From the NCBI RefSeq assembly GCF_025024155.1, contig NW_026251749.1, forward strand, positions 248,001 to 312,000: a DNA stretch of 64,000 nt, given 5' to 3'. Below the pieces are notes generated by a model. The model had not been told where the DNA came from. It ran no database searches and worked only from the letters and a program-made list of their open reading frames with translations. The stretch's first letter is position 1; the number at the start of each line of letters is the position of its first letter. This document shows, in pieces, positions 11,991-34,211 of this stretch. Source of the stretch: Gamsiella multidivaricata. Taxonomy: Eukaryota; Mortierellomycota; Mortierellomycetes; Mortierellales; Mortierellaceae. A program made the position numbers and the translations under genes.

Positions 11991-12121
11991 AAAGGAGTGA
12001 GGATAGAGATATTCCTTATGTTTTTGGATTTTTTTTTTTTTTTTGCAAAATGGTAAGGAATGGTGATACCATGGGCTTAACGGGGTTATTATCTTAGCCG
12101 GGGATCTCTGCTAGAGAGGAG

Positions 12122-12502
12122 TCATGTCGACAATTTTATTTGAAAGGCACGAATAGAACGTCTGTTTTCTATGCACTGCTTTAGTCCCTGTGTCTGCTGT
12201 CTTTCGGTGTTGCTGCAACTGTTGTACTTTTTACAGGAGTGGATGAAGACGGGATGCGTGGAGTGTTGTTTTGATCGATTCAGCCACATATGAGTCTGGC
12301 GTGGGCTGCACAATGGCGGCAAGAAGAGATCCGCAAACAGGTTTTGAGATTCAAGTGGAAGGACGACAATAAGAGAAGCGAAAGGATTGACGAGGATGGG
12401 ATTGGGAATGAGGGCGAGGAATATGATTGCGACCTGTCTGTTGCTTGGAATGGTCACAACCATGGCCACAGCTGCAGCCGCCGTTATTATGTCCATATCC
12501 AT
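12122..12502 (-). other. Unassigned open frame with hydrophobic N-terminus
   Basis: An ATG-started frame of 126 codons whose first 50 residues include two hydrophobic stretches (around AAAAVAMVV and VAIIFLALIPNPILV). It matches nothing I know, and an equally long frame runs antisense (12290-12733, plus). It might be a leader for one of the relics to its left or chance. I list it so that the stretch is not silent. Confidence 0.15.
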
Positions 12503-12830
12503 TGTGGCCTTCGTTTCCGCGGTGAATGTTTGTTCAAAGAGGAGCGGGTTGTAGTCTTTTTTTATTTCCCTCTCTCACTCGTTCCCCCTTCGCCGCACTT
12601 TCTCTACATCACGCCCTTGTATGTTGATGCCCATGTCCATGAGGGTACTTTGTTTCGTGGTGTGGTTCCCGAAGAGATGGATTCTCAGTACATCATTGAA
12701 CATCCTGACACCGGGTCGTACGTGCAATGCTAAAAAGATAAGGGATGTCTTACCGTTGCTGTTGCTTGGGAAGAGTTAACTTCATAATGACACAATGACG
12801 CACTTTGGGCACGGGTCTCGCCATAGTCAA

Positions 12831-12853
12831 ATGGGCGAAGAATTGCTTCGCCC
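12831..12853. repeat. Perfect short hairpin
   Basis: TGGGCGAAG and CTTCGCCCA flank a 5-base loop (AATTG), making a perfect 9-bp stem. It lies alone about 300 bp left of the Tc1 element and is not part of its inverted repeats. There is no T-run to suggest a terminator. Confidence 0.5.
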
Positions 12854-13144
12854 AAAGCTTGAGCCCAAAAAAAAAGAGTCCCCTCCCCTATACACAGGAA
12901 CAACCACAGCCGTACCCTTTTTTGGTGCTTTCAAATCGATCAAATGATGAACAGGGCCAGACTCGAACATGTCCCTGTAATGCTGTACAAGATGCATGCT
13001 ACCAGCCAGAGAGGCCACCTGCGCCCATGAGCGAATAAGCGACGCGTTTTGCCGTGGATTTAGGGCACAAAAACGACCGCTCGGCACCAATAGACAGCTT
13101 CTTTCCCGACAACCAACTTCGCGCATTGGCTAGGCCTACTGATG

Positions 13145-14743
13145 CAGTGGACCCCAAAACTGTCCATTTCAGCCAATTTACTATTGCATCTCCTCAGCCG
13201 TTATTGTGGGGCCAACGACGTTTATGACGTATATTTACTGGCCGATAAGGAGCGTACTTTGACTTTTGAAGCGGCATTGAAAGAGCCTTTATCAGTGTAA
13301 TATTGCTGAGAAGTCCGTTTGTCATTTGGACAGTTTTGTCACCAGCCCTTATTGTGCACGTCAATATTCGGTGTTGCCGCCTTTTGCTTCAATGACAGCC
13401 TCAAGCCGGCCAAGCATACTGCGGATTAGATTGCGGCACACCTCCATAGGTATCTCATTGTTCTAGGTCTGCATGATTGTCTCCCATAGTTCAGGCAACA
13501 CTTCGAGAATTGTTCCTTGACCGCGTAGTTTCCTTTTCAGGTGCTCCCATAAGTGCTTTATGGGGTTCAAATCAGGAGAATTGGCGGGCCAGACGAGGAT
13601 TCTTCCTGTCGCCTCTGTCAATCCAACGGACGCAGTATATACCTTGGTTGACTAGGCGATATGCTTGGAGTCGTTGTCTTGTTGGAAGATAAACCGCTGC
13701 GGATCAATGTTGTGCCAGTCCACAGTCGCCCACAGATCCTCCTTGAGAATGCGAATATAGAGTTCGGCGTCCAAAATACTATCGATTTTAACCAAAAAGC
13801 CCGGACCATCCCAGGTGATGCATCCTCAAATCATGATGGAACCGTCCCCATGCTTCACAGTCGACGTAACCAACTTCGGATCGGTCTTTCGCCTTGACCT
13901 TGGACGGCCCCTCTGTATCCATCCACACATAGCGCAGGCCGTCAGAAGATACTCTGTCGATTTTCGACTTATTGGACCAAATTATTCGCATCCAATCGGC
14001 CTCGGTCCAATCTTAGTACTTCAGCGCGAACCCCAAACGTGCCTCCTTCTGCTTTTTCGTCAGGTGAGGCTTTTTGATTGCCCGTTTAGCTATCATTCCA
14101 ATATTCTTGAGGGCGCGCCTTACAGTATTCGCCGACACCGGGTCTTGGCTTTCCTGATTGTACCTCCTCGTGCCTTCGATGGCGGTACTGATTGTGCCGC
14201 GATGAAATAGCAATCGCAGAACAACGCATCTCGGTATGAGAACTTTCTCAGTCGACCTCCCTTCAGATGGGACCTTGTAGTCGGCGGCTTTTTAGCGATA
14301 CTGTGGACCGAGGACTTCGATATACTAAGCTCAGTAGCAACCTCGCGAAAAGACTTGTTATCCTGCAGCAGACGAAGGACGTTCTTGACAGTGGTAGGCC
14401 TGAGAGCTTTCATGGTTGAATGGCGTGGAAATCAGAGGCGGGTGATGTGGATGGCCAATAAAAGACGGTAATTATTTATACAAACGAGCAAAGAATTTGG
14501 TCTGCATTTCGCAGCGTATACCAAAATTGCCTATGGTTACAAAACTTGTCCAAATGACATGGAATAGTCAGCATTAATAAAAGTCCTTTAGAATGAAATT
14601 AATTTATTTCAAAATATGCCAGCGCATGCTACATCGGCAAGATAGCTTCACACTGGGATCGAAAACCAAGGTACTGCCAATGTGAGTCTATGGCATCTGG
14701 TAATCCAAACTTGAAAACATTTGGACAGTTTTGAAGTCCACTG
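13145..14743 (-). mobile_element. Inactive Tc1/mariner element, about 1.6 kb
   Basis: The termini are inverted: CAGTGGACCCCAAAACTGTC on the left, and the complement of CAGTGGACTTCAAAACTGTC on the right. A second copy of the CAAAACTGTCC core lies about 195-200 bp inside each end (near 13,320 and 14,540) in inverted orientation, so each arm is itself bounded by inverted cores. The right end is followed by TA, the Tc1/mariner target; the left flank (TG) has lost it. Between the arms lies a broken transposase gene on the minus strand. Length, TA target, termini and protein agree on the superfamily. Confidence 0.88.
13361..14413 (-). pseudogene. Tc1/mariner transposase pseudogene (DD34E type)
   Basis: Starts with a Tc1-like HTH (MKALRPTTVKNVLRLLQDNK, then SFREVATELSISKSSVHSI), continues in another frame through DPVSANTVRRALKNIG and KKPHLTKKQKEARLGFA, then IIWSNKSKIDRVSSDGLRYV. 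It ends with FIFQQDNDSKH, a stop, and NSPDLNPIKHLWEHLKRKL. The last two match the second Asp and the Glu of the DD34E triad. At the first catalytic position the family reads WSDESKI or similar; here it is WSNKSKI, so the Asp is lost. Frame changes after the HTH and in-frame stops show the gene is dead. It was a cut-and-paste transposase acting on TA sites. Confidence 0.85.
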
Positions 14744-14745
14744 TA

Positions 14746-15204
14746 CAGTGCCCAAGAAAAAGTCATTGGGAACGATTTTCATTTTGCGTACGAACACCGC
14801 GTAAACATATAAAAGTGTGAGGGGGGAAGCATGCTGCTCAGCGTACAGATGAGCTCGAGATATGGGGCTGCCACGGTTTTGTTCAGGTTTCTTAGGAAGT
14901 TCTCATTACATGGCCGTGGCACGTAACTTTAAAAACTTAGAAATTTTTTTGGCGAGATTATACAACCAAAATATGTATGTCTCGTACGGTTTTGATTTAC
15001 ATGAACTGGATTTTTGAATGGAAACACGTCTTGAAAATTACATGGCTTGTAGCCGAAAGAAACCCGAACAACACCGTGGTGGCCCCATGTCTCTAGCTCA
15101 TCTGTAAGCTGAGCAATATGTCTTTTCACTTGTACTTTTTCATGTTTACATGGTGTTCGTACGCAAAATGAAAATCGTTCCCAATGACTTTTTCTTGGGC
15201 ACTG
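14746..15204. mobile_element. Foldback MITE of Tc1/mariner type
   Basis: A 459-bp unit bounded by TA on both sides (14744-14745 and 15205-15206). It begins CAGTGCCCAAGAAAAAGTC and ends with the inverse complement. The first about 60 bp of each end are nearly identical, and weaker inverted similarity continues to about 160 bp (shared CAGATGAGCT...TGGGG...CCACGG...TTTCTT), so the element can fold into a long hairpin. It has no transposase gene. A 66-codon minus-strand frame (15129-14929) spans the right arm and may be chance. Its termini share only CAGTG with the neighbouring Tc1 element, so it was moved by a different transposase family. Confidence 0.85.
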
Positions 15205-15457
15205 TACCTTTGCTCATCAATGAATTCACAGCCAAGTACAAACGGATAAAAAAATGTGCAGCCCTCTATTCGTGCACGCAGACAATCATTCTAAAAGCAG
15301 CTAAACGCTTGACTTACAATCGGCATAAATCAAAGTATTCGAAACATCAAATGATGGGCTCGATTACAAAGGCAAAGAAAGGAGTGAAATATTACGAGAA
15401 CCATGTTACAGAACAGACTAAAGGAGAAATGCAAAAAGCCATCCAAGCAATGATTGA

Positions 15458-15985
15458 TCATGGAAACGCGATCTCGAACCGAGGTGGATCTCCACCGAAA
15501 AACACCTGCGCTCTCGAAGCATGGATAAAGTCTTCACCTAGAATGTTGATGTGTGCAAAGTGCGACTCTGACGGCGACGGCGACACAAGAACCCTGTAGC
15601 CATTGATCAGGAGCGGGAGCCGTAAAGTCTTGGTCTTGTCCACGGACTCGCCCACAACAACAGCATCCTCGACGCCAATGGCCCTCAATGCTTCTTCGGA
15701 CATGTAGGTTTGGGCTGAGGCTGCAACGTGGAGAAAATGGACATTCACCGGATGGGGGGTTCCTGACATGGTCGTAATAGCCTCTGTGATCTGGACATGC
15801 AGCGATATAATCGGCCTGAGATTGGCGCCCATGATGACGCCCCTGACAAGCTTTTTGCTCCGGCTGTCCGAGATTTGTTGGAGATATTTGATACATAGAA
15901 GCTCGGAGGCATGACCTTCTAGGTCTGAGTACAAGATGTCCTCAAAATCGGCGCAAAGGGAGTCGAAGATTGTGTTATCCACCAT
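15458..15985 (-). CDS. Retropepsin-like single-domain protein, active site lost
   Basis: A 175-residue intronless frame from the ATG at 15985 (MVDNTIFDSLC); an in-frame ATG at 16147 exists upstream but the leader there does not look coding. The layout is that of aspartyl-protease-like (retropepsin fold) proteins: an entry strand LVRGVIMGANLRPIISLHVQI, then VNVHFLHVAASAQTYMSEEALRAIG where active members read FLxDTGAPxTYLSxEALRxxG, then a second strand pair with FAHINILGEDFIHAS (family pattern NVLGxDFL). The Asp-Thr-Gly-Ala of an active protease is replaced by His-Val-Ala-Ala, so proteolysis is unlikely. No reverse transcriptase, integrase or gag lies nearby, so it is a stand-alone gene rather than part of a retroelement. 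It may be a domesticated or decaying copy. Divergent from NBS1 with about 285 bp between starts. Confidence 0.55.
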   Translation of the reverse strand: MVDNTIFDSLCADFEDILYSDLEGHASELLCIKYLQQISDSRSKKLVRGVIMGANLRPIISLHVQITEAITTMSGTPHPVNVHFLHVAASAQTYMSEEALRAIGVEDAVVVGESVDKTKTLRLPLLINGYRVLVSPSPSESHFAHINILGEDFIHASRAQVFFGGDPPRFEIAFP

Positions 15986-16270
15986 GATATGTTGGACCCA
16001 AGCTGCCAATGACGGTTGCGGGAATGGAGCAGGAGAAAAGTGAACGAGATAAAAAGAATAAGGGGACAAATAAACAAAGTTGTCTAGGGGCAAGATGTAG
16101 TGGCGGCAGTCACCCCTCACAAAAATGGTGGCGGACATAATTCCCACACTCCGCTTCGCCCGCCCGCGTTTCCGTTAATCGTCTGTTCATCCCTCCACGA
16201 AGATAACATAAGCAAGCACGCAACCAGGAAAGCACGATCAGCATACAGGAATACCGTTGAGCAGGACAAT

Positions 16271-19200
16271 ATGTGGTTCCTAGTTGGACAGGGGCGTAAC
16301 GCAGGTACGCTTTCCATGAGTTGGCGAGCGATCAAGCGGTGGAGATGTCGAGACTGATTCCTCTTTTGCCCATTCTACCGGAAACTGAATCTCAAAAGGC
16401 CTCCGTGTCTGGCTCAAGCCTGAGATGACCCTGACTATAGGAAGGCAGATCGCAGGCAGGTATTGCCGTCCCCAAATAATAATAATAATATTATTAACAA
16501 AGCAGCTAGTCTTGGTAAAGAAAGCGACTAAATAACACAAACATCGGGTACATTGTAGATGATATATTATGTCTTGGCAACGGTGACCTTTCGGTCGGTC
16601 GACGGCATGTAGCTCTCACCGTATCCAAGCCCACGATGCAGAGTGTTGTAAGTTAACATTTTGTCTTGCCATACTACGTTTCAGCTACGTTCTTCGACCT
16701 GGCCGACTGATCACGAATATCACTTCTATTCTTGATGCTATAGCGCACCCGAGGCGAGCACACCAAACTGATCATCCGTGACCTCAGCTCCAAACACGGT
16801 GTCTTCGTGGATAATGAGCGGATCGAGCCAGCCAAAGATACCGAAGTCGTTATCGATGCCGCCAATACATGGACAGTTAAAGAAAAGAGGCACGTAGCAG
16901 GACGCGGCTACGGTGGATTCGTAGATGTGATCGTTGGTGAAAAGACCTCATTCCGACTAGAAAGAGTTGACTGGAGCCTTTGTTCTCAAGGACTGAGCGC
17001 CCAGGCCAAGGTGGGCATCGTCACAACCGCGGTTGAGATTGGTAAGGATGATATTCCATGATACATAAGTAAAGAATTCGATCCATGACATTTTTCTTGA
17101 CCATTTTTGTCATGTTTCCATTGCTGCTAGACTGCAAGATGGAGGAGGCTTGGACTTCTGGCATATCAACGCATCTAATTGTTGGAAGAACCAAGCGCAG
17201 CGAAAAAATGTTTCTTGCTCTTGCAGAAGGAGGACATCTAGTGGGCGTTGACTGGCTCAAAGCAGCGGAAACTTCTTTTAGGGAATCATGGAGTTCGAAA
17301 GGCCAGAAGGACGCTCGTACGCTTGAAGTCGATCACCCCGCGCCAGTTCCCGCTATCCTGCAATGCCTTGATATTCAATGGACGCCAAACGCCACTCGAA
17401 AAGCACTACTCAAGGACTACCGCTTTATCTCGATCGCAGCTTCGAAAGTATGTAGCGTACTGCCACCGCGGTCATTTGTGCTCTCAGGCATGTTCTCACA
17501 ACTGAATACAATGTTCTTGCTGCCTCTTCGTATATGTTTAGTACTCAGGGCTGAGCCACGTAATACAATGCGCTGGAGGAAGCTGGGCTACAGCAGATGC
17601 AGCAAATGCGCTACATCTGATACGCGAATGCATCTTTGCCACTATCATACCCGTATTCTTGCGTCCACCAGGCGAAGGAGATGTCGCCAAAGCGTACCCA
17701 AAACTGGACACCACTTTGACAAGGTACGTTGCAGAGGATATGATCGGGTATATCTCTCCAGCATCTCCAAACGTTCTGCTTGTCTGACTCATATCTGACC
17801 TACTTGTGGTTCCGTCATTCTTTCGTCAAACAGGATGAAGTATCGATGGGTACACGAGGATGAGATCGGGATGGCAATCATGTACGCGTCGACGGATATG
17901 TACTGCAATCCAAAATATCTGGAGCCACTGCCAGCTATGGAGACCGCGGGATCTTTTCAAAACAGCTTAATTAGTCCTTCACTTACGGAACCGTTACATA
18001 TCACCGATGTTGCTGCACTACCATCATCTTCTGTTGCGGTCCCCCTTTCCGCAGCTGTCACAGCTCTGAGCAGAAGTGGATCATCCACTGGAGATACCAA
18101 GGATGATCCGCAGATTGTTGACGACGACGACGACGAACCGCCTATAGCCTCATTCAGTTTGTCACAAATGATTCCCGCATCCACGAAACCGAATCACACA
18201 GGCACCAGCACTCTGGGTGTTGGATCGGAGACGTTGTCCGCGCCTCAGCCTTCAAACCCCAAAGCGACTGAGAAACCAGCCAAAAAGAAGGTATCTTTTG
18301 CAGGATGCCAACTTGTCATGCATGTGTTATTTTAGCTTGATCTGCTGCTTACCCTATTATTGACGGTGTCATAGACAAAGATGGATCGCATGGCGTTGTT
18401 CTTCGACGGACTAGAAGACGAAGATGATGCTATGATTTTGAACGCTGTCGAACCGAAAAGTGACAAGCCAATACTATTACCAACCGCAAATGACACGCCT
18501 AGTCTGCCGATTCCTGTTGCTGCGGCTTGGCCGGAGAAGCAGGGACAATCAGGCAATCAATTGGGCATAAACGTCCACGATGGAACAGGACGGCCTATCG
18601 CTATTGGGGACGATGCCGTTCAAAATGCCTTGGAGCCACGAGAAGCTGAGATGGAGGGCGATTTGAAGAAACCCAGCCCTGATGAACCAAGACGCGTCGG
18701 CCTTATAAAGGAGAATGAAGACACGAAATTAGAGTTGATTTTTCAGTCCTCCTCCCCATCAACTAGCGCCAAGGGGTCGAGAAAAAAGCCTAGTTCATTT
18801 GATGCGGTTCGGGAGGACATGGTTGCGCTGAAATTGAACGTGAAGGTTGGACGGCAAAAAGACAACCTGGATGAGCAGGAGCGATTGCGAAGGCTAGAAG
18901 CCCAGCGGCTGTTGGAAAGATCCAAGGGCGAGGAGAGTAAACTCATGCAGTCTGAATGGAGCGAGGCCCTGCTGGCCAAGAGTAAGCGTCGAAGGATCAA
19001 AGAAGAGCAGGATCAAACCCCACAAGGTAGCCTTGCGACAGAGCCTAGCCAGGAACCAGACCATCAATCTGTAAGCGTTCGGATTTTGGAAGCTGCGGAT
19101 CAAAAGAATTGGCCTGAGCGGTGGAAGAATCTCCCGAACTTTAAGGACAGGACAGAGGTGGATACTGTCCTGCACGAAAAATGGAAGAATGTACCCAACT

Positions 19201-19666
19201 TCAAAGCATTCAAAAAGGCAGGGCTCGTCGCAGCTGCGTGCTGTTAGTTATGAGAGTCTTTATCGTTTGTATACGATATTCGTTCATTTTTGCTAACGTT
19301 TTATATCTTTATTGAAACGATAGTCCACGATGACAGGGCTTCATGTCGAGCCAAGAAAGCCAGCTTCCCTCACATTGGACGGGAACATTGAGGTGAAGCA
19401 AGAAGAGACCGGCCAGAAGGGTATGTTTTCATGTCATTTGTTTATGCTATAGGCGCCCATATCGATACTAGTTTATATCATAAACCCATGAACTCGGTTC
19501 ATAATCTACTTGTAATTGCATAGCCGGCCGGTATCTGAAGCAGGAGCCACAAAACTCTTCGGCAACATCACCAGTCCCAGTTCCGGCGCTAGGACAGCGA
19601 CGAAAGCCAATCAGCGAGGTGCAGAGGACACGCAACGATTTAAAGGCGCTGCTTGCAGAAGACTAA
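16271..19666 (+). CDS. NBS1: Nibrin/Nbs1 homologue of the MRN complex
   Basis: Ten exons read as 16271-16304, 16399-16455, 16559-16647, 16744-17041, 17131-17447, 17542-17723, 17834-18290, 18375-19217, 19324-19420 and 19524-19666; all phases match, giving about 838 residues. The N-terminus is an FHA domain (LKPEMTLTIGRQIA, DLSVGRRHVALTVSKP, DLSSKHGVFVDNERI). Tandem BRCT regions follow (THLIVGRTKRSEKMFLALAE, HLVGVDWLKAAE, then SGLSHVIQCAGGSWATAD). The C-terminal part is disordered with a basic motif SKRRRIKEE and an Mre11-binding-type motif VPNFKAFKK, matching NFKKFKK in human NBN. Nbs1 recruits Mre11-Rad50 and Tel1/ATM to double-strand breaks in the nucleus. Intron 2 and probably intron 8 need GC donors (CAG|GCAGGT; AAG|GCAGGG). 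If the latter is wrong, the protein stops at about 19,245. Domain order, length and motifs make the family call strong. Confidence 0.88.
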
Positions 19667-19775
19667 GGCGCCAGACTAGTACCAGAGTCCAGTATTTGTA
19701 CGATAAAGAAGAACGCACAAGTAAAATCATGAAAGCACTACGCAAATAAACATTGCATGCAGTTGTCTTTATATT

Positions 19776-20935
19776 TTAAAAGCGGTTTCCTACAGTCGAC
19801 GATGAGTTGCTGTAGACTGCACTGCTGCTTCCGTATTGCTGTTGTCCTCCATAACTGTTGCCGCTGCTGGCTGGGCGATCAGGGCTCTGACTGCCCTGAT
19901 ATCCGTGTCCATAATTACTGTTGCTGCTGCTTGGACGGGAGATGGGATAATCCGGTCGGAGCTGGTTCTTATCGGGATTAAACGAGGAGTAGGGCGACGA
20001 AGTTGAGGGAGTGAGGTGGCTCTGGGATAGTGAAGAACTTCCAAAGCCGGCAAAGCTGGGTGTCTCCACGAGCGCTGGCGAAGAGTCCTTCTTGTTCAGC
20101 ATCGCGCCAAAGAGATTCTTCAGAATGCCGCTCTTCTTTTGTTTGCTTTCCTGCGATTTGTCAAAGCTTGGGAGTGCATTGTCGTTGGCGCTTAGAGAGA
20201 TGAAATAGACGAATGGCACCATCCAGACGCAAATACCGAAAAAACTGGCGATCGTCATGAAGCTGTAATAGTGCCTTGTAAAGTACTTGAACCACATGAA
20301 ATGATCCGCCAGAACCAGTACTTAACCGTATGGTGACAACAAATGAAATCATTGTGAGCCGTCTGCTTGACTTTTTCTTTTCTTCATCCCTCCCTTTCAA
20401 AGACCCAAAGCACATACCGCAGCTAAGAAGGAAAGGAGCGCTGAGGAGGTTGATGTAGGGAAAGTTGGCCAAGTTCAGACTGTAGACTGCATGACAGCCG
20501 AGCGAGAACACAATCTTCGTGAACGGCAATCCGTCTAGCAGCCAGAGCAACAGATGAAGCGCCACGACCGTCTAAAAACAGCGTTCTTTGGTCAGGCCCC
20601 AGGATAATGACAAGAGACTATCGCTCAGCTGTGTCCAAAAGCTTTTCCGCCAAAGCAATGTTGGTGTGTACGTACCAGCGTCAAGCCTTTGATAATTTTT
20701 TTTGTCATGACTGTATACTCCTCCACGAGCTCTGCCAAGTAGTAGAGGCCGCATGCTATGGTAGCCAGGAGAAGAGAAGCCATGATCAGCCTATAACCCT
20801 GTTTCTACTTCAAGATGATATGGGTTCTAGTGACTCAAGTGCATCAGACGCCTTACCAAGCGACAGCGTGGAAAAGAGAAAAGCGATTCCTGTGCCTGCA
20901 TAAGAGATCAGTGCCAGAGTGATGCCTCCAGACAT
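19776..20935 (-). CDS. SVP26: Svp26/Erv26-TEX261 family ER-Golgi cargo receptor
   Basis: Exons 20935-20857, 20755-20676, 20571-20418 and 20320-19776 give 285 residues in consistent phase. The start MSGGITLALISYAGTGIAF is followed by ACGLYYLAELVEEYTV, the hallmark of the family (yeast ASGLYYISELVEEHT; human AAGLYYLAELIEEYTV). Later come FPYINLLSAPFLLSCG, DHFMWFKYF and ASFFGICVWMVPFVYFISLSAN, all at the family positions. Four or so hydrophobic segments span the membrane. Yeast Svp26 is an adaptor that loads Golgi mannosyltransferases and other type II proteins into COPII vesicles. The C-terminal cytosolic tail (about 100 residues, Ser/Gly/Gln-rich) is longer than in yeast. The gene converges on NBS1 with about 110 bp between stops. 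Confidence 0.93.
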
Positions 20936-21338
20936 GGTGTCGTGTGGATTCCTATCAAAAACGATGGGGACTGATCCTGTGTTTCCAGCGTTCGTTGTAT
21001 TCCCAAGTAACTGAGTATCTGTGCACGTCTGTCCTGCTCGTGCGAGTCGGCCGCTGGTCCTTGCTGTGGGTTAAATGAATGAGGGAAGGAAAGAGATGAC
21101 AAACAACAGACAGACCTTGGGCTCTGTGCTCTGGGCGCTCGCAGTCCTTGTCACGTTCACTGCATAGGATGGGCCTACTTTTCTTAGACACCAACAACGC
21201 TCTTCCGCACTTCTCGTCAGGAGACATAAAAACACTTATTTGACCATAGCATTAATACGAAAAGTGCATTGTATGTAATAAGATGCGTCTATGTCTATGT
21301 GATCCATGGAAGGGGAGTACGGATGCGAGGCGTGGCTC

Positions 21339-23000
21339 CTATGCGCCTTGTCCTTGGGGGACGAAGAAATCAAGCGAGCACGCGAAACGGATTGGCCGTA
21401 CCACTCGTTCGCCCTCGAGTCGATTGCTGAGGATATAGTTATGCCGAACGTCGTATGTGAATTCAAATAGCGCATCCTCCTCCTTGGCCTCTTTCTCTTC
21501 TGCTGTGTCTTCTTCCTCCAGATGTCCACAAGAGGCCGTAGTGATAGCAATGCCCTTGTCCGAACGCGGTCCAGAGAACTCACGACATGACCTGTATATG
21601 GACGTGGCCATACTCGACAGCGCAGACATCCATTCCGCGGCATCCCATCCACCTATAACGAACGGTTCGTCTTGCCAGCGGTGGTAGTGGTAGTCCGGCA
21701 TCTCGGTCGTTGCACCTATAGGATATGACAGCCATCCCCTTGGTCCAGAGCCGTTCCAAGAAGACCGTTCGAGGAGTCCTTTTAATGCGGTCGAGAATTG
21801 CTCACTTTCGCGTGTGAAAAACGACAACTGCTCTCTCACGCTCTCAGGGTGCCATGAGTGCCGACGGTTGACCTTGGACGACGCAGCCCTGCGCTTCTCT
21901 TCCTCTCGCTGGCGCCCGAGACGATGATTAGGCAGCCACGGCTTTTCAGAGAGCACTACAGCTTTGGTGCGTCTTTGTCCTAGGTTCCTCGTATCCAGCT
22001 CAACAGCTCTTGGCAAAAACTGGACTGCACTCGATGCCTCTGTGTCCGTCATCCGAGACAAAACTCGCAACAAAACATGATCCTGCATAAAGGCTGCCTT
22101 CCTCTCTCTCGCGCTTCTTGCTCGAGGTGACTCTACCTCAAAGAATGAGGGCCGCCCAACAGGAGAGCTATCTGTTGTACTCATGGAAGTACCACAGAAC
22201 TCGTTCAAATGATCATTCCAAGAGGTGATCCAACGCGCGGGCGTGTTCCTGTGAGCCTTGAAGGAGATCCTCGCAGATTCCAGGGCTGGAAGAGCACACG
22301 ATTTGTCGCAATGGAAAAAGTTACTGTCTACGACGTGGTCCTCCTGATCCAGTGCATCAGCTGGGCTCATGGCGAACTCGAACACGGTTCTTCGGCGATC
22401 TGATACGTCTCTTCTGCGACGCGACTTCCAGATCACGCTTTCGATATCGTCCGCGAGTGAAGGGTATTGGCACTGAGCCTTCGATCGAGTGTGGTCGCAC
22501 AATATCGGGATTGAAGTCGAGTTACTCTGAGCGCGCAAATCCCTTCTGCACCTCTGCGCCGTGGATGAAGATTTTTTTGACGAAAACTCTTGATACTGTT
22601 GCAAGACTTCTTGTCGACGCCTCTCTGCCATCTCCATGCCGAGCTTTGCCTCCAGCTGAAACTCGACCCACATGCGGTCTGCATCGAAAGCCGTAACCCT
22701 CCATTGCGTCGGAAGCGAAGCCGTTGCGGATGTTGTCGTTGTTGTGTTCCGGTCAGTCGGCCCTCGAGCATCCTGCTTAATCTCGAGAGTCAGGATCATC
22801 AAGGCCAACGAATAGTCCAGCTGCTGCTGAATAATGGGTCGGTGGATCTTTGGTAGACTTGTGTACACCTTGACGAGGTCATGAAAGGGAAGGAAGTTGA
22901 CAATGTACTGAAGAATTTCGGGTGGTAGGCCGTGAAACTCCCTTGAGGAATTTGCTGATTGCAATCCCGAGAGTGGTGGTTGGCAGGTCAGTTGTTTCAT
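21339..23000 (-). CDS. F-box protein of unknown target
   Basis: Intronless, 553 residues. The ATG at 23000 (MKQLTCQPPLSGL) is the first true ATG; the frame continues upstream only through TTG. An F-box-like motif lies near the N-terminus: FHGLPPEILQYIVNFLPFHD, then LVKVYTSLPKIHRPII. The remainder has no LRR, WD or Kelch repeats that I can see. It has a conserved-looking aromatic region (SYPIGATTEMPDYHYHRWQD, then FVIGGWDAAEWMSALSSMA) and an acidic segment (EEEDTAEEKEAKEED). F-box proteins are substrate adaptors of SCF ubiquitin ligases through Skp1. Substrate unknown. The 400-bp gap to SVP26 shows no other gene. Confidence 0.65.
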   Translation of the reverse strand: MKQLTCQPPLSGLQSANSSREFHGLPPEILQYIVNFLPFHDLVKVYTSLPKIHRPIIQQQLDYSLALMILTLEIKQDARGPTDRNTTTTTSATASLPTQWRVTAFDADRMWVEFQLEAKLGMEMAERRRQEVLQQYQEFSSKKSSSTAQRCRRDLRAQSNSTSIPILCDHTRSKAQCQYPSLADDIESVIWKSRRRRDVSDRRRTVFEFAMSPADALDQEDHVVDSNFFHCDKSCALPALESARISFKAHRNTPARWITSWNDHLNEFCGTSMSTTDSSPVGRPSFFEVESPRARSARERKAAFMQDHVLLRVLSRMTDTEASSAVQFLPRAVELDTRNLGQRRTKAVVLSEKPWLPNHRLGRQREEEKRRAASSKVNRRHSWHPESVREQLSFFTRESEQFSTALKGLLERSSWNGSGPRGWLSYPIGATTEMPDYHYHRWQDEPFVIGGWDAAEWMSALSSMATSIYRSCREFSGPRSDKGIAITTASCGHLEEEDTAEEKEAKEEDALFEFTYDVRHNYILSNRLEGERVVRPIRFACSLDFFVPQGQGA

Positions 23001-24830
23001 CGATCGAGGTGATAACAATAATGAATCCTCTGGATTTGGGACACGGCTCTGAGCGGGCCTATAGGTGATTGGGACAGAGGAAGAGAGTCCTGATGAGAGG
23101 GTGAACTTGAGGACTTGTAGAGCCGTTGATCAGGTACAAGGCTAGGAGTAGCACAATAGCGTATGACCAATATCATGAAGCTGGTTGCCGGACGGCGTGG
23201 AAATATCTCATATCATTCGCGGTCTTTATGCCACAACTGTATCAAGAACACAACATTTTCTTGTAAAACTTGGATGAGGCCTTACCGGTCGCGAAGGAGG
23301 TGCATATCCGCGAGAAATGGGGCGGGAATGTGGGTTAAAATGGTTCCTGGGACAGAGACCATGCGTGCGTAAAGAATTTTAATGAACCACCGAATAAAAT
23401 TATAAAAATATTTTGGCGCAGTTGCTTAAGCAGAACGAGGCTGAAGTATATGATGGGAGGGTATGATGGGAGGGTATGATGGGAGGGTATGGTGAGTAGG
23501 AGGCAGATGGTAAATACACGCCGAAGTGGTAAGAGCGAACGCGAGGAAACAAGTAAGATGAGAGGCGTTTGTGGGGTTTATCAGATCAAGGTCGTAGGAA
23601 GATGAGGTTGGGTAAAGGTCGGTGGTGATTTCTGCGCGACTTTGTGATTGCTGGGTTCGCACAAGTAAAGGTAACCTCGAAGGAGGAGCTGTGTAGGTTT
23701 TGGGTGTAGGCTTTGGTGTAGTTACGCAGGCCGGCGACAGGATGCAGGACGGTGAGCGGAAGATGATGGCAACGCAAAGTGTGCGAGAGAGATTGCGTGT
23801 GTGTATGGAGATGTGGTATTGGGAAGGCGGCGATTTCAGTTAAATATCGGAGGCGGGATGGCGATTTAAATAAGTCGATCAATGTTGTGCATAGGGGATC
23901 GGTTAAAATTGATAGTTTACTGCCGGGGAGGATCTGCAGGGCACGATTACAATGACCTCACAATCATCCATGGAAGTGCCAAGGAGTACAGAAGTCTATT
24001 TGCACATGCATACCTGTGCCCGGTTGCTGCTGGCAACGACATATTCCCTATCCTGACATCATTCCTGCTAATGGAGCCTCATGGGCGAAGGCTCTTCTCT
24101 CCTTTTGTGTATCCAAAGCGGACATCCGACCCTAATTTTTTATTTTCTTGTCCTGGGTTCGAGACCAGAAACACAATGCACAATGACAAATATACGTTCT
24201 TAATATATTCCTTGGCGGCCCCGGATCACCTGTTTGGCACCAAAAAAAGACAGCGGTGCTGAAGAGAAGGAGGGGAAAGGGCACAAACCAACAAGGGCAA
24301 TGCAAATGCGAGCAATTGGGTCCCACGTGGCGCCGAGGTTCCTGACAAAGAAAAGTACATCTCGGGCATATTTGGGTCCGTTTAGGTACAGTTTGTGCTC
24401 CCTGGTATCCATCCTTCGCATATGAAAATTCGCCTTCGGGTGAATTATCTGCATGTTCTGTGCTGAAGGGGCGAAGGCAATGACGCTCCTGTTTGTCTTC
24501 CATATTAGCGTTGATGGCGGCGATCGCTTGCTATGAGTCTAGCTTGTCTATAGAGTTTTGGTGGCGACACCCGGTATTCCCTTCTTTCCTTGGGCAGGCA
24601 GCTAGGAGGAAGAAAATGGAAACGAAGTTCGATTGAACAGTGTTCCTAACATCCGAACTTGCCTTGTCAAGGTTGCTTATTCTCCACACAGCCTGCTATG
24701 GACAGGTTCACGACACGCACATTATAAAAGGTAAATAAGGGACAATCACGCTGCTCCCCAGCATCAGCGGGGGCACAATAGATATCATCGCAAAGGACAG
24801 TGGCGAAGCAGCTGATTCTCCGCTCAGGCA
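23001..24830. other. Gene-poor interval
   Basis: Contains the F-box gene's presumed promoter, the 13-bp tandem repeat at 23452-23490 and nothing that I can call a gene. The frames here are short, compositionally biased shadows. No tRNA folds were recognised. Confidence 0.55.
23452..23490. repeat. Three perfect copies of a 13-bp tandem repeat
   Basis: The unit GATGGGAGGGTAT occurs three times head to tail, then breaks into GGTGAG. It is G-rich on the plus strand and is a plausible site for length polymorphism. No gene overlaps it. Confidence 0.92.
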
Positions 24831-25390
24831 CATCTCCGGCCGGCAGAGTGGGTTGAATCAACTGGTTTTGAAAGGAGCAGATCTGCGGCAGCTGGAGTCA
24901 TTTCTGAAGATTAAGGACAAAGGTCGCATTCTCGGCAACCTGTACAGGATTGTCACCAAGGAGGGTCATGTTAAATGGATGTGCATCGATCACTACCGTA
25001 AGAACTACCGAGAGTCGACAGCGCAGCAGCTGTGAGATGTTGTCGAGTCCAATCATGGGACGTTCTATGAAGAAAGAGGAAAGATCTACATGCAGCTGAG
25101 GTCTTTGACGTCGGCAAAGGAGTTCATCGAGGCGCTGGCTAAGGCGCGAGGCGTTCTTGAGCTGGAGATTACCTTGCGATGGGACACGTCAATGAGTGAC
25201 CTTCAGAAACTGGCCTCTGCTGTCACGGCAGCGAACATAGTCCATCTGACTATGAGTGGCTGATATCTGGGGACGGACCAATACTAGGCTATATCGGCCG
25301 CAGCTGTCGTTTTGACCCGACCCCGGGGCTCATGGCGAACAGAAGGTTCTCTCTACAGTAAGCGGCGGTTGCATATTATGATGCCATGAG
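24830..25390 (+). pseudogene. Stop-riddled relic of a Mortierella repeat-protein gene
   Basis: A readable frame runs through LNQLVLKGADLRQLESFLKI, then GNLYRIVTKEGHVKWMCIDH, YRKNYRES and, after a TGA, FYEERGKIYMQL, TSAKEFIEALAKARGVLELE and TLRWDTSMSDLQKLASAVTA. It ends at a second TGA after HLTMSG. I recall multi-copy Mortierella proteins with the same succession (GNLYRIxTxEGHVKWxCLDHYRxNYRES ... ITLxWDAxxxDLRxLxxAVTxANxxxLTxxG); in those, both stops would be ordinary codons. The first TGA replaces what is probably an Arg (CGA), a single C-to-T change. No start or ending domain is present, so this is an internal fragment. The role of the intact family is unknown to me. Confidence 0.55.
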
Positions 25391-26311
25391 CGCTTTTTTG
25401 AACGTCCTGGGGATATTGAATCGCATTTGTCAATGAAACGACCTTGCAGATGTGGGGCCAAAAATGAGTAAGCGCTCTCTTTGTCCCTAGATCAAACACT
25501 TTCTATCTGCACACTACAAGCGGGCCTCAAGTCCAGTTGCACTGAACCATACCAATAATCACCATCGTAACTATCAAGAGTAAGGCCTTTAATAACATCA
25601 TCAGAAAACAATGCAAATATGTGTGCATGTTAACGATGTGTGTACCGAAGGACCCACACATAATGTGGGTCTGTCCGAGAACCGCCAATGGGTGAGAGCT
25701 GGACCTAAACAAATGGCAAAAGGCGGTTTCAGCCCACAAAAGCCGATGGAGGAAACGAGACGTGCCGCTCTTGAGTAAGCGCGTTCATTTATCAACAGAG
25801 GCACTCCCGGTCAATTGCACACATTCTTCAGTCAGCAGGCTGCCCCTTGACTTGCGGACATATTACCTTAGTCAACGGCCGTTTATGTGGGTGCATTACG
25901 GAATTTTTATCAATCGAAAAATGCTTATTAAAATGCACGGAATAGGTTATTTCAGTGGCCATTAGAGTCCTCGCCAGGAAGTCGCGGGCCAACATATTTT
26001 TGAGCCCCTTTCAATTGAAATGAATACACGCCTTTTTGGGAGCAGTTTTTTTTTTTTTTGCACGTTCACAAGACACCCCATGGTCGCGTCTAATCGTCCT
26101 CTTGTCATCTATGGCTTTAATGGTCATCTAGTCTCTGCACCTTTACCGGCGCCGTCATCTCTTTCATAATTGAGAATATAATCAGGTACATGCATACAGC
26201 AGTGGACGCGCCTGGCTGTCAGCTTTGTACATGAAAAGGGCGCCTTATTTACTGAATTGAGCCAACTATTTCAAAAATATGTTGTTGGCCTGCGACTTTC
26301 TAGCGAGGACT
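25391..26311. other. Interval without recognisable gene
   Basis: Holds short frames only and a T-run near 26,046. The segment nearest the GST gene is its 3' flank. Nothing supports a gene or repeat. Confidence 0.5.
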
Positions 26312-28390: not shown

Positions 28391-29135
28391 ATGCTTCTCC
28401 AACATCAGCGCTTTCAGCTCGGCGGGAGGGTCCAAGATATCGAGGTTGAATCCAACCAGGCTACAGGGAAGCTGTGCGTCCTCCTCAGAGATGTCCAGGA
28501 TGTGTTCCCAACCGCAGCTCGCTTTGAGCGGGAGGGGCGACCTGTGAGGTTTCAGAGCGATGACCAAGGAAACAGGAAAGTGCTCGTAGCGCCCTCGATA
28601 AACCTTGTCGACTTGTGTAATCACCTAACCTTTACTCTTTTCCTGCATGAACGCAATATGTGCCAAAATCTGTAGATTGGAGCCCTTGAGGATTGCGTAT
28701 CACCCAGACAGCATCCTTCAAGTCGTTCCTGCGAGACAAAGTCCGATGCCAGTGCCCTCTTCTCCTTCTCGGTTGTCAACTTCTGGGTCTTCACAGCGTC
28801 CTCCATCTCCCTCAGTCTTGCTGGGCTCGCCCAATATTTCAAGCGAGGAGGACTGGCGTGACTATCTGCTGCAGAGGGGAGTGCGGATGGCGATCCTTGC
28901 GGTGGTCTCGATGATGACGGTGCTTGTGAACCATCTGGTGTCGAGCTGGATGTGGCGCGCAAACCTGTACCCAATAGTGGCGATGTATTGGAAGTTCGTG
29001 ACAGGCTCCCTGTTGGCACTGAGTGTAGCGTGGTTCCTGATGCTGGTGTTCCTGGCCGCGGAGGTAGTCTGGTTTATAATTAGTACCCCTATTGCCACCA
29101 AACGGTCGATGTATCAGCGACTCTTCGATTTCTAA
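28391..29135 (+). CDS. Lineage-specific protein with C-terminal membrane segments
   Basis: Exons 28391-28614 and 28676-29135 give 227 residues. The start MLLQHQRFQLGG is the ATG nearest the conserved-looking block; an in-frame ATG at 28073 would add 106 poor residues. The first half reads RFQLGGRVQDIEVESNQATG, LCVLLRDVQDVFPTAARFER, LVAPSINLVDL then LEPLRIAYHPDSILQVV. I associate the RFQxxGxxVxDxxVE...W/LRDxxxVFP...PLRIxxxPxxxLxVV succession with Mortierella-specific proteins of unknown role. A Ser/Pro linker follows. The C-terminal 110 residues hold two strong membrane spans (MAILAVVSMMTVLVNHLVSS and GSLLALSVAWFLMLVFLAAE). The TAA stop is immediately followed by the terminal inverted repeat of the next element, so native 3' sequence is missing and the last residues could be truncated. 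Confidence 0.55.
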
Positions 29136-29377
29136 GGGCGCCCTAGTCTCGCAGCCAGACCCTTTCATTTTACGAGGGTTGGAATCGAATTCCTTCGCCA
29201 CTCAAATGAGGGTCTGGGTTCAAAGATGGACTTATTGACAGGGACGTCGTAAAAATAAAAAAGGCAAGAAATTAAGGGTCGCGGTCCTTGCCCTCGCCTA
29301 ACCAAACTGAACCACGGCCATATTACCTTGGCGCATGTTCCTCATCCCATCGTTCCCACATACCTTACCTTAACTCC
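29136..29377 (+). repeat. Left terminal inverted repeat, 242 bp
   Basis: Inverted partner of 32528-32769. Starts one base after the TAA of the upstream gene. It ends about 50 bp before the helicase ATG and therefore probably contains that gene's promoter. Confidence 0.92.
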
Positions 29378-29424
29378 GTACCTTCCTATTCACCACGCAT
29401 TCACACCCACTCCCACTCTTTGAC

Positions 29425-31233
29425 ATGGCTCACGGTCAACGCCCTAAAACACGGCCTCCTCTCAGTCACCGTTCGACGATCATGCACGGTAATGAATCGG
29501 AGAATGCAACTCAACCCATTATCCTTTCCTATCCAGAAAATGGCGACGAGCGGTGCGAGACCATATTCGGATTCACTCCCAAGCCTGAACAACGGATGGT
29601 CGCCGAACACATCGGTCGTGGAGAGGACTGCATCCTTATCGCAGGCTGCGGTTGGGGCAAAACCTTAGCATATTTCCTTCCTCTGATTTTGTGGGAGAAC
29701 CGCGTCATTGTCATCATCTCGCCACTGGTAGCACTAATGGAGGAACAGCACAGAAAACTTCAAGCCGTGAATATCAGCAGTATACCCATCCATAGTGGCC
29801 GGCAATTGCCACATAACCTCGAGGACGAACTCATTAATGGAAAGTACAGAGCCGTTTTTATGTCTCCGGAGACCGTCTTCACTAGTGTACGTTTCGAGTT
29901 GCTCTGGAACGAGGCAGCCTGGAGGTCGCGAGTTCAGGCAGTAGTCATTGATGAGGCGCATTGTATCAGCACGTGGGGTCCGGAGTTCAGGAAAGACTAC
30001 AGCCGAATTGGAGACTTACGCTCTAGACTGCCCCCAGGCACAGCCTTTGTGGCGGTATCAGCAACTCTTCATGGACAAATTCTTCAGGACGTCAGGAGGA
30101 GTTTTCACTATGGAAGCGATGTCACAGTCATCAAAGCCAACACCGATCGCCAAAATGTCAGATACGAGGTGCGAGTGTCCAATGACAGCAGGAGCTGCCA
30201 CGAGGACCTGGAGTTTCTCTTGGATTTCAAGAAGACGATCGTTTATTTCGACAAGATGAACGATATGATGGCGGTCTACAGACATCTGAGAATAAAGGCT
30301 GAGGCTTCCCAGCCATCACTCCGTCAGTCAGATATAATCGCCTACTTTAACGCCGACCTGAAGACAGAAACCAAGGAGCTCTATATGTTGAAGTTCAAAC
30401 GAGGTGAGATCCGCATTCTGCTGTCCACTGAAGCTGCAGGAATGGGGTGCGATATAAGCGACATTCTACGAGTCGTTCAGTTCAGGTTTCCAAATAACAT
30501 CACGGTCCTCGCGCAGCGTCTTGGTCGCGCAGCTCGCGATCCAAGTCTCCAAGGCCTTGGCATTTTGATCTATCCTCGAACTGATTCCTGCAAGTTCAGG
30601 GCCATGGAAGCCGATCTGTACGATTTCATCAGGGCCGACTGTCGTAGGAAACATTTCAACAACGTATTCGAGAATGAGCACAAAAATGTCACCAACTGCT
30701 GCGATCTGTGTCACAACTCTCTTCCAGCACCAATCAACCCTGACTACAGGATGATTCGTAAAGCCCCTCGACAACGGCCAGTTCCAAGGTTCAAACGCAC
30801 TCGTCGTCCGGAACAGCAACTTGAGGCGAAGGAAAAAATAGAGGCTTGGAGGAGCATGGAGTTGCAAGGGCTGGAGAAGCACTCAGAAATCTATGATGAG
30901 AGGTGCATCATGAACGACGGTGCTATCAACTTGCTCTCAGCGAGATTTGGCGATGTAGCTGTCGCTGAGGATATCAGCTCTATTATCGACTGGTCAGAGC
31001 TGGTAAAAGGCTCGCAACAACGACTTGCCGATATTCTCGTGGAATTCAACAACGAAATCGAAAACCCATTTTCACAGGAAATTCGGTACCCAAATGCTCC
31101 ACACAATGAAGCAGGCCATAGTAAATCTTCGCCTTCTCAGCCAGGAAGCCAAACACAAAAGCGAGCAGGAGAAGGGCACTTCTGGACATCCAAAGACCAT
31201 CACAACAAGCGGAATAAGCCAGCTCAAGAGTGA
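29425..31233 (+). CDS. RecQ-like DEAH-box DNA helicase carried by the TIR element
   Basis: Intronless, 602 residues. The motor motifs are intact: a Gln-motif region (FGFTPKPEQRMVAEHI), Walker A as GCGWGKT (about residues 74-80), ISPLVALMEEQ (Ia), MSPETV, VIDEAHCISTWGPEFRKDY (II, DEAH, about 175), AVSATL (III), LLSTEAAGMGCDI (V) and LAQRLGRAARD (VI). A RecQ-type zinc-binding segment follows: DCRRKHFNNVFENE, then NCCDLCHNS. There is no HRDC domain; the C-terminal 170 residues are basic and low in complexity. RecQ enzymes unwind DNA 3' to 5' with ATP. The chromosomal RecQ/Sgs1 is far longer, and this short form with few flanking domains resembles the multi-copy helicases of fungal mobile and subtelomeric DNA. 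It lies wholly inside the inverted repeats, converging with the DUF6589-like gene. Motor family is sure; role in mobility is inference. Confidence 0.88.
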   Translation: MAHGQRPKTRPPLSHRSTIMHGNESENATQPIILSYPENGDERCETIFGFTPKPEQRMVAEHIGRGEDCILIAGCGWGKTLAYFLPLILWENRVIVIISPLVALMEEQHRKLQAVNISSIPIHSGRQLPHNLEDELINGKYRAVFMSPETVFTSVRFELLWNEAAWRSRVQAVVIDEAHCISTWGPEFRKDYSRIGDLRSRLPPGTAFVAVSATLHGQILQDVRRSFHYGSDVTVIKANTDRQNVRYEVRVSNDSRSCHEDLEFLLDFKKTIVYFDKMNDMMAVYRHLRIKAEASQPSLRQSDIIAYFNADLKTETKELYMLKFKRGEIRILLSTEAAGMGCDISDILRVVQFRFPNNITVLAQRLGRAARDPSLQGLGILIYPRTDSCKFRAMEADLYDFIRADCRRKHFNNVFENEHKNVTNCCDLCHNSLPAPINPDYRMIRKAPRQRPVPRFKRTRRPEQQLEAKEKIEAWRSMELQGLEKHSEIYDERCIMNDGAINLLSARFGDVAVAEDISSIIDWSELVKGSQQRLADILVEFNNEIENPFSQEIRYPNAPHNEAGHSKSSPSQPGSQTQKRAGEGHFWTSKDHHNKRNKPAQE

Positions 31234-31304
31234 CAATAAAGTGTTTGTCAAAGATAAATCTCGCACTGCATCTAGCCTGCAATAAGATTGCAGTATGTGT
31301 GTGT

Positions 31305-32409
31305 AGGAGTGTGTATTCAAGAAGAAGGTTGCTTAAAGTCTGAGGAATGTCCAAGGAGGGGAGGTTGCTATGGATATATACGTATGACATGCATAGCCCC
31401 ATCGTGGATAAAAGCCGTATAAGGCGTTTCGGAGCTGATAGGCCTCGCAGATGAATCCCTAAAGAAGGAGAAAATGGTTAATGATATATCCATGCAGAGA
31501 GGCGATTAAAGAGAATACCAATGATCAAACCTCATACCAATCATCATTTGGAAGCAATTCGATCGTGGGTTCTTCATGAATAACAACATGCAACCCACGG
31601 TCACCACGAAAGAATTAGGATCCCTCTTTTGTTCCGGATCGGGTTCGTCCTCCCAGTCTGAATCCTGTTCGCACTGTGGTTCTGTGTCCGAATGGAGATT
31701 TGAGGTTGAGCTCGACTCTGATGCTGTATCCTGCTCTGACGCCGTATCCGAATCAGGCTCCGAGAACGATACTGAGAGCCACGGTGGCCGTTCTCTTGTA
31801 GAAGGAGGTATTGGGTCATGAACTGAAAGGCTGCGCGGTCTCCAGGCCGAAGATGACTGGAACCCTCCAGCCGATTGTGGTAGCAGTTTCTCCAGAAGTA
31901 GTGTGAGATGTGGGGCTGAGTTTGTGAGCGAGGATCTGATATGACCCAGCGAAAACCTCCTGATAGCTTTGCGGGATATCGAATTTGCTGGATGCTTGAA
32001 AGATTTATCCTTGGTGGCATTGTCGAGATCTGCCTGAACACGTCCAGCTACAATATCGATCGCTTCTTTTGCAAAAGTTGAGTCGCTATCTGTTCCCTCC
32101 AACTTCTCTCTCAAAAGGCGGATAATGGTGGCAGGCCCACCAGTAGTGTAAAAATTTAGTAACCCTGCGAGCAATGATTTCCTGGCGAGAGTTGAAGGCA
32201 GCAACTAAAAACTCGCGCAAGGAGAGGTTGTTGTTGTACAGTGCGTCGAAAACGTTTAAAAGTGAACGCTCTCGGGTTTCATTGACCCCTGTTTTTTTTC
32301 TCCTTTTCCTAGTGGGAGTACTGGCCTGCACAGAAGCCATACAAGCCTCACCGTTGTCGTCTACAGTAATATGCTCCTCTATAAAACGCCAGTAAGACTG
32401 GCTGGCCAT
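31305..32409 (-). pseudogene. Broken DUF6589-like gene of the TIR element
   Basis: From the ATG at 32409 (MASQSYWRFIEEHITVDDNG) the frame reads through RSLLNVFDALYNNNLSLREF, LVAAFNSRQEIIARRVTKF. The match then moves to the next frame (FYTTGGPATIIRLLREKLEG, RVQADLDNATKDKSFKHPAN, FSLGHIRSSLTNSAPHLTLL). The switch falls in a T5 run near 32,155, where one base too many would explain it. An acidic Ser-rich linker follows, then SFVVTVGCMLLFMKNPRSNC, FQMMIG and, across a 79-bp intron (31537-31459), IHLRGLSAPKRLIRLLSTMG then LCMSYVYIHSNL. The order (LxEFL...SxVxxFxxxGG; FSLxxLxxxLxxxAPxLxxLL; MLLFxxxxRxNxFQxxIG; PKRxIxxLxxxGLxxSY) is that of the N-terminal half of DUF6589 proteins as I remember them. 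The C-terminal half is absent; the frame runs into the antisense of the helicase 3' end. Confidence 0.6.
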
Positions 32410-32527
32410 ATTTGAAAACCGTACTGAACTTTATGGGCACGACGGAGAGTAGTGATGGGTATTGGAGACAAGGGCTAGATACTGGTCAAGGGGGCTAGTG
32501 TGAGACGAATTGAAAACATATGGATAT

Positions 32528-32769
32528 GGAGCTAAGGTAAGGTGTGTGGGAACGATGGGATGAGGAACATGCGCCAAGGTAATATGGCCGTGGTTCAGTT
32601 TGGTTAGGCGAGGGCAAGGACCGCGACCCTTAATTTCTTGCCTTTTTTATTTTTACGACGTCCCTGTCAATAAGTCCATCTTTGAACCCAGACCCTCATT
32701 TGAGTGGCGAAGGAATTCGATTCCAACCCTCGTAAAATGAAAGGGTCTGGCTGCGAGACTAGGGCGCCC
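32528..32769 (-). repeat. Right terminal inverted repeat, 242 bp
   Basis: Inverted partner of 29136-29377, with two transitions near the inner end. It lies about 120 bp upstream of the ATG of the DUF6589-like gene, and its outer edge is 135 bp upstream of the TRIC-channel ATG, so it can influence both promoters. Confidence 0.92.
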
Positions 32770-32904: not shown

Positions 32905-34211
32905 ATGGCCCTTTTCAGTTCGCAATGGGCCTCCGCCCTGGTCGAGCTACCCACGCTGACCTTCCATCACGCCCTGCTTCCCCTCAGCATCTTCTCTGCG
33001 CTCCATGGCATCCGCGTCTCCATGGCATACCGTCAGGCCCTGGAGCATGCTGCGGAGCAGTCCCTCAGGGACGGCACAGGAACCAGGCCTGCTCGTGTAC
33101 CCTGGGGCCAAGCCCTGCTCTCCGTCCTCACAATGTCCCTTGGCGGCGGCTTCACTGCCAGTAAGTGCTTTTGCATCTTCGATGTGCTTCCTTCGCTGGC
33201 GCGTCGCGTATTTAACATGCATGCCGGTGCAGTTGCTAACAATACACCTTTTATTCGTGTTATCGGTCGCCTATACAAGGCATGTTACTTGGTATGCCTC
33301 CCTCATGGCTCGGCTCCAACATAACGGTCCCAACATACGCTCTGTCTTTCGTCTTGGTCCAGTACACGTTCCTGTACGATGTGCTAAAGGACATGGTCCC
33401 CCCCGCGATCCTTAATCCTATCCTCCTTATCGCTGACGGATCTCTGAGAGCACTGTCGATTGCCAAGCTGGGTGTGGACGGCTCTAGGATGCGCTTTGCA
33501 GCAGACAGCCACCAGGGTGGTGCAGGAGGCGTAAGCGAGCCCTGGTTTGCGATGCTGTTGCTGGGTATGATTGCTGGCTCGGGCGGCGGTATGTGGGCAG
33601 ATCTGCTCAAGATGAAGACGCACCAATGGACGCTCTCTACCCCCACATTCGTTCACTCTGCCACATACGATATGAAGGCGGCTTTATTGAGCGCGCTTTT
33701 CTATGCCGCATCGACCTCTCCACAACTCCATGGATTACTGCGTGGAGGAGATGCAGAATATCCGCTTTTCAAGAGTGGGCTGCTTGAACCGCAGGATGCA
33801 AAGGCGATGACCATCCTGGTTATGTGCACGGTTTTGCTGGGCCAGAATGCGGATATAGCCTCCTACGGCTCAGTGCCTCTGAGCTGGATCAGTTCGCTTC
33901 AGTCCAAAGCAGCGGTCTCCAAGAAGAACGACGATGACGATGAATACGAGTCCATTGGGTTGGCCAGGGTAGGCCAGGACGATACAGCGCCCCATCGTCC
34001 TTTGAGAAGACGCGGGCGACCAGCAAAGGTGTTGGCAGAGACGGCGCTGACAGCGGAAGAGGATGGGGAAGATGAAGAGGAGGAGTCTGTAAAGAAGAGC
34101 AATCAGGGTAGGAAAAGGGCTAGCAGCAAGAAACCGGTAACACCAGATCCAGATACACATTCGACTCGTAATAGCACCCGTATTCGCAAGCCGACCCGTA
34201 AGGACCTTTGA
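32905..34211 (+). CDS. TRIC-type (TMEM38-like) cation channel
   Basis: Exons 32905-33160 and 33280-34211, 395 residues. Hydrophobic segments alternate with the glycine-rich turns expected of trimeric intracellular cation channels: LSVLTMSLGGGFTASMLLG, then MPPSWLGSNITVPTYALSFV, the FLYDVLKDMVPPAILNPILL block, and a second MLLLGMIAGSGGGMWADLLK which mirrors the first GGG motif. TRIC proteins are monovalent cation channels of ER/nuclear membranes that balance charge during Ca2+ release. The tail of about 110 residues is highly charged (KKNDDDDEYES, GEDEEEESVKK) and contains an AT-hook-like RRRGRPAK with further basic clusters to the C-terminus, unusual for the family. Only 135 bp separate the ATG from the TIR element, so the promoter is largely new DNA. 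Family call moderately strong. Confidence 0.75.

Follow-up and report, generated by a model that had tools for sequence, protein, structure and literature searches.

The AcademH group of DNA transposons was reportedly described by Kojima in 2020. Among other DNA transposons, MULEs carry long terminal inverted repeats (TIRs) and 9-bp target duplications, hAT elements duplicate 8 bp, and Transib/RAG1 and P elements have duplications and a gene content unlike those of the DUF6589 elements presented here. AcademH elements encode a helicase and make 9- or 10-bp duplications (PMC10045372); they have been found in Basidiomycota, Ascomycota and Mucoromycota, in low copy numbers (PMC10799480). Kolobok elements generate TTAA-specific duplications of 4 bp; the fungi-only KolobokH lineage encodes a RecQ helicase downstream of the transposase domain, and a red-alga Kolobok carries its RecQ helicase on the complementary strand (PMC9587614).

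The element described below lies in a 64-kb stretch of the genome of Gamsiella multidivaricata (37.5 Mb, 180 contigs), hereafter the window. In our view it is very probably a defective DNA transposon of the AcademH type, with two genes and long inverted repeats, whose DUF6589 protein, in intact relatives, is the DDE transposase. In fungi, a helicase together with duplications of 9 or 10 bp agrees with the AcademH description, and the likeness extends to the DEAD/Helicase_C architecture of the helicase, the TIRs and a fungal host, Mucoromycota included. Helicase and TIRs are both found in the window copy; duplications of the expected length are found in its relatives, whereas the window copy is flanked by one of 8 bp and has lost the catalytic region. 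The class is therefore probably AcademH, likened by description, and the window element would be a degraded member of a probably known kind. The initial annotation had called the element undescribed-looking, a view that finds no support, since helicase-bearing AcademH elements with 9- or 10-bp duplications appear in two publications (PMC10045372; PMC10799480). With the element come a predicted function for DUF6589 and a pattern of arm identity.

Structure of the window element

Self-comparison of the window identified inverted arms at 29136-29380 and 32525-32769 (245 nt, 99% complementary) as its longest inverted repeat. Counted from the terminus TAGTCTCG (29144 and 32761), each arm is 237 bp long; the mismatches between the two number 3 and fall at positions 218, 230 and 235, hence within the innermost 20 bp, the outer 217 bp being identical; the near-identical arms first noted as 242 bp with two mismatches are real, the figures being trivially off. 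The termini were set at TAGTCTCG because of the comparison with the ends of relatives, and GGGCGCCC, present outside both termini, was left out as a duplication. The two flanks match at 8/8 positions, and at just 4/9 if extended to 9 bp. Being palindromic, GGGCGCCC also looks TIR-like; its inclusion in the TIR was dropped because relatives that terminate in TAGTCTCG or TAGGCTCG have ends that favour a target duplication, and the best reading is that the flanks are probably an 8-bp target-site duplication. The left GGGCGCCC begins directly after the TAA (29133-29135) of an upstream open frame. The resulting element of 3.6 kb encloses a helicase gene (+) and a DUF6589-family gene (-) in convergent orientation, and its arms end before the start codons of both. 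Its features are the following:

29136-29143, no strand: left copy of the flanking GGGCGCCC, probably a target-site duplication of 8 bp (agrees with the right flank at 8/8 positions; the corresponding place holds 9-bp duplications in eight relatives)
29144-29380, plus strand: left terminal inverted repeat, beginning with TAGTCTCG (237 bp; the right arm differs at 3 positions)
29425-31233, plus strand: intact RecQ-like SF2 helicase, 602 aa (Pfam, solved relatives, TIGR00614, motifs)
31352-32409, minus strand: remnant of a DUF6589-family gene, N-terminal third (three colinear profile matches; the frame has its first ATG at 32409)
31459-31537, minus strand: probable 79-nt GT-AG intron in the remnant (read from the sequence)
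32525-32761, minus strand: right terminal inverted repeat (arm comparison)
32762-32769, no strand: right flank repeat GGGCGCCC (match to the left flank)

Elsewhere in the window, just one further inverted pair of at least 60 nt was found, at 14743-15207. With 151-nt arms 85% alike and TA adjoining CAGTGCCC at its ends, it resembles a short element of the Tc1/mariner type and has partial matches on contig C98. The neighbouring gene at 33240-34208, earlier designated TRIC, gives only sub-threshold matches to Gly_transporter (0.0031) and TRIC (0.03).

RecQ helicases are recognized by the SF2 motifs, an aromatic-rich loop and a Cys-rich motif, and this combination is present in the window helicase. 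Its frame is open from the ATG at 29425 to the TGA at 31233, matches DEAD and Helicase_C in Pfam and has in place the motifs GCGWGKT, DEAH, CISTWG, SAT, QRLGRAAR and a C-terminal CCDLCH, which we take to be of the zinc type. Ten checked motifs are the same or nearly the same in six relatives, two of which (L029 and L040) are close copies. Among proteins of solved structure, its best relative is E. coli RecQ (3.3e-37), followed by a second RecQ and by WRN. The top NCBIfam match is the RecQ family TIGR00614 (2.5e-55), with a score of 188.1, below the cut-off of 219.8; RQC and HRDC domains gave no match in this protein.

The minus-strand gene of the window gave no match to the Pfam DUF6589 domain (PF20231), which in intact relatives lies downstream of the region surviving here. 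The family assignment, for which an HMM search had been proposed, nevertheless came from a profile of 831 model positions built from five DUF6589 frames, all full-length and all from this genome. It matches three colinear minus-strand pieces of the window, at model positions 60-104, 102-242 and 240-276 (E = 1.5e-6, 6.2e-25 and 4.2e-5, respectively); the sole other piece listed, among the 1364 searched, had an E of 0.47. As only positions 60-276 are found, the remnant corresponds to the N-terminal third of the gene. The profile search found no DUF6589 sequence beyond position 276 in the window, and therefore this copy lacks both the Pfam domain and the candidate catalytic triad discussed below. 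The frame is broken near 32150. A second gap, near 31500, was at one point regarded as damage and is now read as probably a 79-nt GT-AG intron; an alternative intron of 103 nt also fits the crude GT-AG pattern. With its whole catalytic region gone, the window copy is, as far as its sequence tells, non-autonomous. Frame and profile analyses thus agree with the first description of two convergent genes, an intact RecQ-like helicase and a broken partner that has lost the putative mobility enzyme.

Related elements in the Gamsiella genome

At least 24 PF20231 matches occur in the genome; we grouped them into 17 places, and stretches over all 17 were compared. A convergent relative of the helicase is found at 16 of them, the exception being on contig C149. 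Inverted arms of 134 to 1623 bp, with 93-100% identity, surround 15 of the 17 (L029-L043), those of L040-L043 running to the end of the examined stretch or of the contig; L044 has just a 125-nt inverted pair of another layout (88%), and self-comparison detected no inverted arms in L045. The nine best helicase relatives in the genome (40-47% identity) all lie at DUF6589 places; helicase matches unaccompanied by a DUF6589 match are also present, for instance on C63, C118 (236596), C126 and C152. The distance matrices of helicase and DUF6589 correlate over 12 pairs (r = 0.87, p = 0.0001), a value to which host kinship can contribute; of these pairs, five come from this genome (with L030 represented by its longer frame), and in the other seven the two proteins are taken to be on one contig since their contigs are of equal length. 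The Actinomortierella protein model P0115 combines both domains. DUF6589 has at least 143 relatives; among the matches listed, those with a name belong for the most part to Mortierella-like fungi and are annotated as hypothetical or DUF6589 proteins.

Target duplications were sought by a script tried on 11 elements, L035 and L040-L043 being left out, and both ends were found in 10. Eight elements (L029, L031, L033, L034 and L036-L039) have perfect 9-bp duplications (9/9), a length differing from the 8 bp of the window copy. L030 scored 6/9, by eye a 1-bp indel, and the right end of L032 was not intact in the script test. By eye, this end is interrupted by L030 and L029, and the TTTAGGGGT duplication of L032 is recovered beyond both, so that three elements are nested on C147. 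This nest spans about 7771-25612, with two elements inserted close together in one TIR end, and self-targeting is a possible cause. Identity with KolobokH had been raised by the RecQ helicase, which is present as expected of this fungi-only group, and the complementary-strand helicase of the red-alga Kolobok recalls the arrangement seen here. For KolobokH, 4-bp TTAA duplications and a helicase downstream of the transposase domain are expected (PMC9587614), whereas TTAA is absent from all eight 9-bp duplications. KolobokH was rejected on these duplications, and we regard it as scarcely tenable.

The initial annotation had suggested recent movement, and for related elements this is borne out. 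L036-L039 (7210-7211 bp) are 0-2 substitutions apart at four sites with four different duplications, and L033 and L034 show 3 differences in 5317. Judged by these sequences, related elements in this genome have jumped very recently. Reading the breaks in L036-L039 as the mark of dead genes is countered by the part of them that was checked: by eye, GT-AG sites coincide with the break in the DUF6589 gene of L036 and with one or more of the breaks in its helicase gene, and therefore the genes of these near-identical copies may be intact. Taken together, the helicase at 16 of 17 places, the arms at 15 of 17, the eight duplications and the four near-identical copies establish that helicase and DUF6589 form one mobile unit, as the initial annotation had inferred in assigning the pair to one mobile element class.

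A segmental inverted duplication beside two ordinary, immobile genes would agree with the 242-bp repeat being nearly single-copy (2 full and 2 partial matches in the genome), an outcome that the initial annotation had named, when joined to the lack of an empty site in relatives, as refuting its reading. The class is nonetheless multi-copy: the same gene pair occurs at many sites inside TIRs that differ from case to case, and these have matched ends and target duplications, which makes an immobile duplication next to inconceivable.

One of the partial matches of the repeat, on C119 (L047, 4500-7680), has TAGTCTCG ends and, by eye, a 9-bp duplication CAATTTTTC (9/9). No helicase or DUF6589 piece was found inside it. 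The initial annotation had taken copies enclosing unrelated genes and a conventional transposase as evidence against its reading; this element holds neither gene and shows only weak, sub-threshold Tc5/DDE_1 pieces. L047 also holds a nested insert with inverted repeats flanked by TA. A duplicated flank of the C119 element was considered as an empty site and discarded, the similarity beginning 29 bp off the insertion point. The partial match on C153 is, by eye, a short fold-back with no matching 9-bp flank.

The terminal motif TAGGCTCGNNNCCAGCC occurs 67 times with at most 1 mismatch, against 12 for the reversed control, and several inward-facing pairs are spaced 0.3-1.6 kb apart. Their positions suggest short non-autonomous relatives. 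Inward-facing terminal motifs are 546 bp apart at both C154:99225-99770 and C171:112480-113025, and 782 bp apart at both C15:9927-10708 and C22:76904-77685; to go by motif positions, such equally spaced pairs on different contigs are probable MITE families of the class. The window-type end motif gives 14 matches with at most 2 mismatches, against 8 for the reversed control, and 8 with at most 1 mismatch, confined to three loci (C117, C119 and C153), beyond which it has no excess comparable to that of TAGGCTCGNNNCCAGCC.

DUF6589 as a candidate transposase

A structure predicted for a DUF6589 protein of full length is similar to those of the DDE transposases Hermes, P element, RAG1 and Transib, with Hermes (hAT) as the best match; we interpret it as an RNase H-like core with a helical insertion, in which D244, D390 and E637 are the likely catalytic triad. 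Given this DDE-like predicted fold, DUF6589 is the probable transposase, in line with the mobility role first proposed for it, and the helicase its partner. The DUF6589 profile gave no match to sequences of solved structure up to an E of 10, Transib/RAG1 and P element chains included, so that the likeness to these is one of broad predicted fold. Against Pfam, six DUF6589 proteins gave one weak match, to a Tc3 HTH (0.054), and none to the hAT, MULE or P families at an E limit of 10, with filters that drop most matches above 0.1. In a viral structure library, the single match under an E of 0.001 is a hAT-like protein of Pandoravirus japonicus. In the open-access literature searched, nothing relevant was found on DUF6589, nor on Mortierella-type fungi with RecQ and an inverted-repeat transposon, nor, as far as the listing shows, on DNA transposons with terminal inverted repeats in such fungi.

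The fold match to Hermes, and long TIRs with 9-bp duplications as in MULEs, could also point to a hAT, MULE or P element in which two host genes have been captured and the mobility enzyme has been lost. The lack of matches to these Pfam families, the 9-bp duplications of relatives and the helicase partner distinguish the elements from hAT. L029, L031, L032 and L033 contain no frame above 300 aa other than DUF6589 and the helicase, and the two genes co-vary; gene capture is accordingly a very unlikely origin. A separate, non-Academ DDE superfamily that gained its RecQ helicase and 9-bp stagger independently deserves more weight, though we still hold it to be unlikely. DUF6589 is listed by Pfam as a family of unknown function, Academ is known here by description, and Kolobok also has RecQ-helicase lineages (PMC9587614). 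Against independent gain, helicase, 9-bp duplication and fungal host all agree with the descriptions of AcademH (PMC10799480; PMC10045372).

Under the favoured AcademH-type reading, the DUF6589 DDE transposase of intact relatives would bind at the TIRs, excise the element in a presumed cut-and-paste reaction and join it into the target with a 9-bp stagger. The convergent RecQ-like helicase is inherited along with it as a partner and probably assists, be it at the ends or in the repair and copying of the long repeats. The window copy would be moved in trans, if at all.

Arm identity and its implications

In 12 of the 14 elements measured, the difference between the two arms does not exceed about 1.3% (0-10 mismatches); L029 (19/344) and L047 (8/194), with arms 4-6% different, run against the pattern. 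Between related elements, the two longest arm matches are 78% over 754 bp (L030/L041) and 86% over 453 bp (L032/L042), a difference of 14-22% in these two best-matching pairs. L042 (C94, 1635-9901) has arms of 1623 bp with one differing site around DUF6589 and helicase genes that, in our interpretation, are in pieces, with in-frame stops and frame changes. Such near-perfect arms around decayed genes make it the best case for arm homogenisation. Likeness within elements, divergence between them and the decay of L042 together hint at a homogenisation of the arms inside each element, through conversion or copying; alternative sources of arm identity are a young age, transposition in trans and errors of assembly.

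The arms of L030, L032 and L033 reach into both genes, whose frames share 39, 80 and 58 identical residues, respectively, when read from stop to stop and thus partly upstream of the likely start codons. In L029, L031 and L040, the two frames share no identical stretch beyond 5 residues. We advance as a tentative idea, itself rather doubtful, that each element keeps its arms identical by internal copying done or helped by its own RecQ helicase. If this were true, then in those families whose arms cover both gene starts a duplicated promoter and N-terminal peptide would serve transposase and helicase alike and evolve as one, and arms would stay recognisable to the transposase after the inner genes die, as in the window copy.

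A protein family without an assigned function in Pfam gains, with DUF6589, a testable predicted one, that of a DDE transposase. All nine of the helicase's best relatives in this genome are found at DUF6589 places, which suggests that the RecQ-like helicases multiplied in such fungi are often transposon cargo and not repair genes. Recently moved copies of 5-7 kb with known ends offer material for assaying helicase-assisted transposition, and arm identity, if confirmed, would provide a concrete hypothesis for the job of the helicase.
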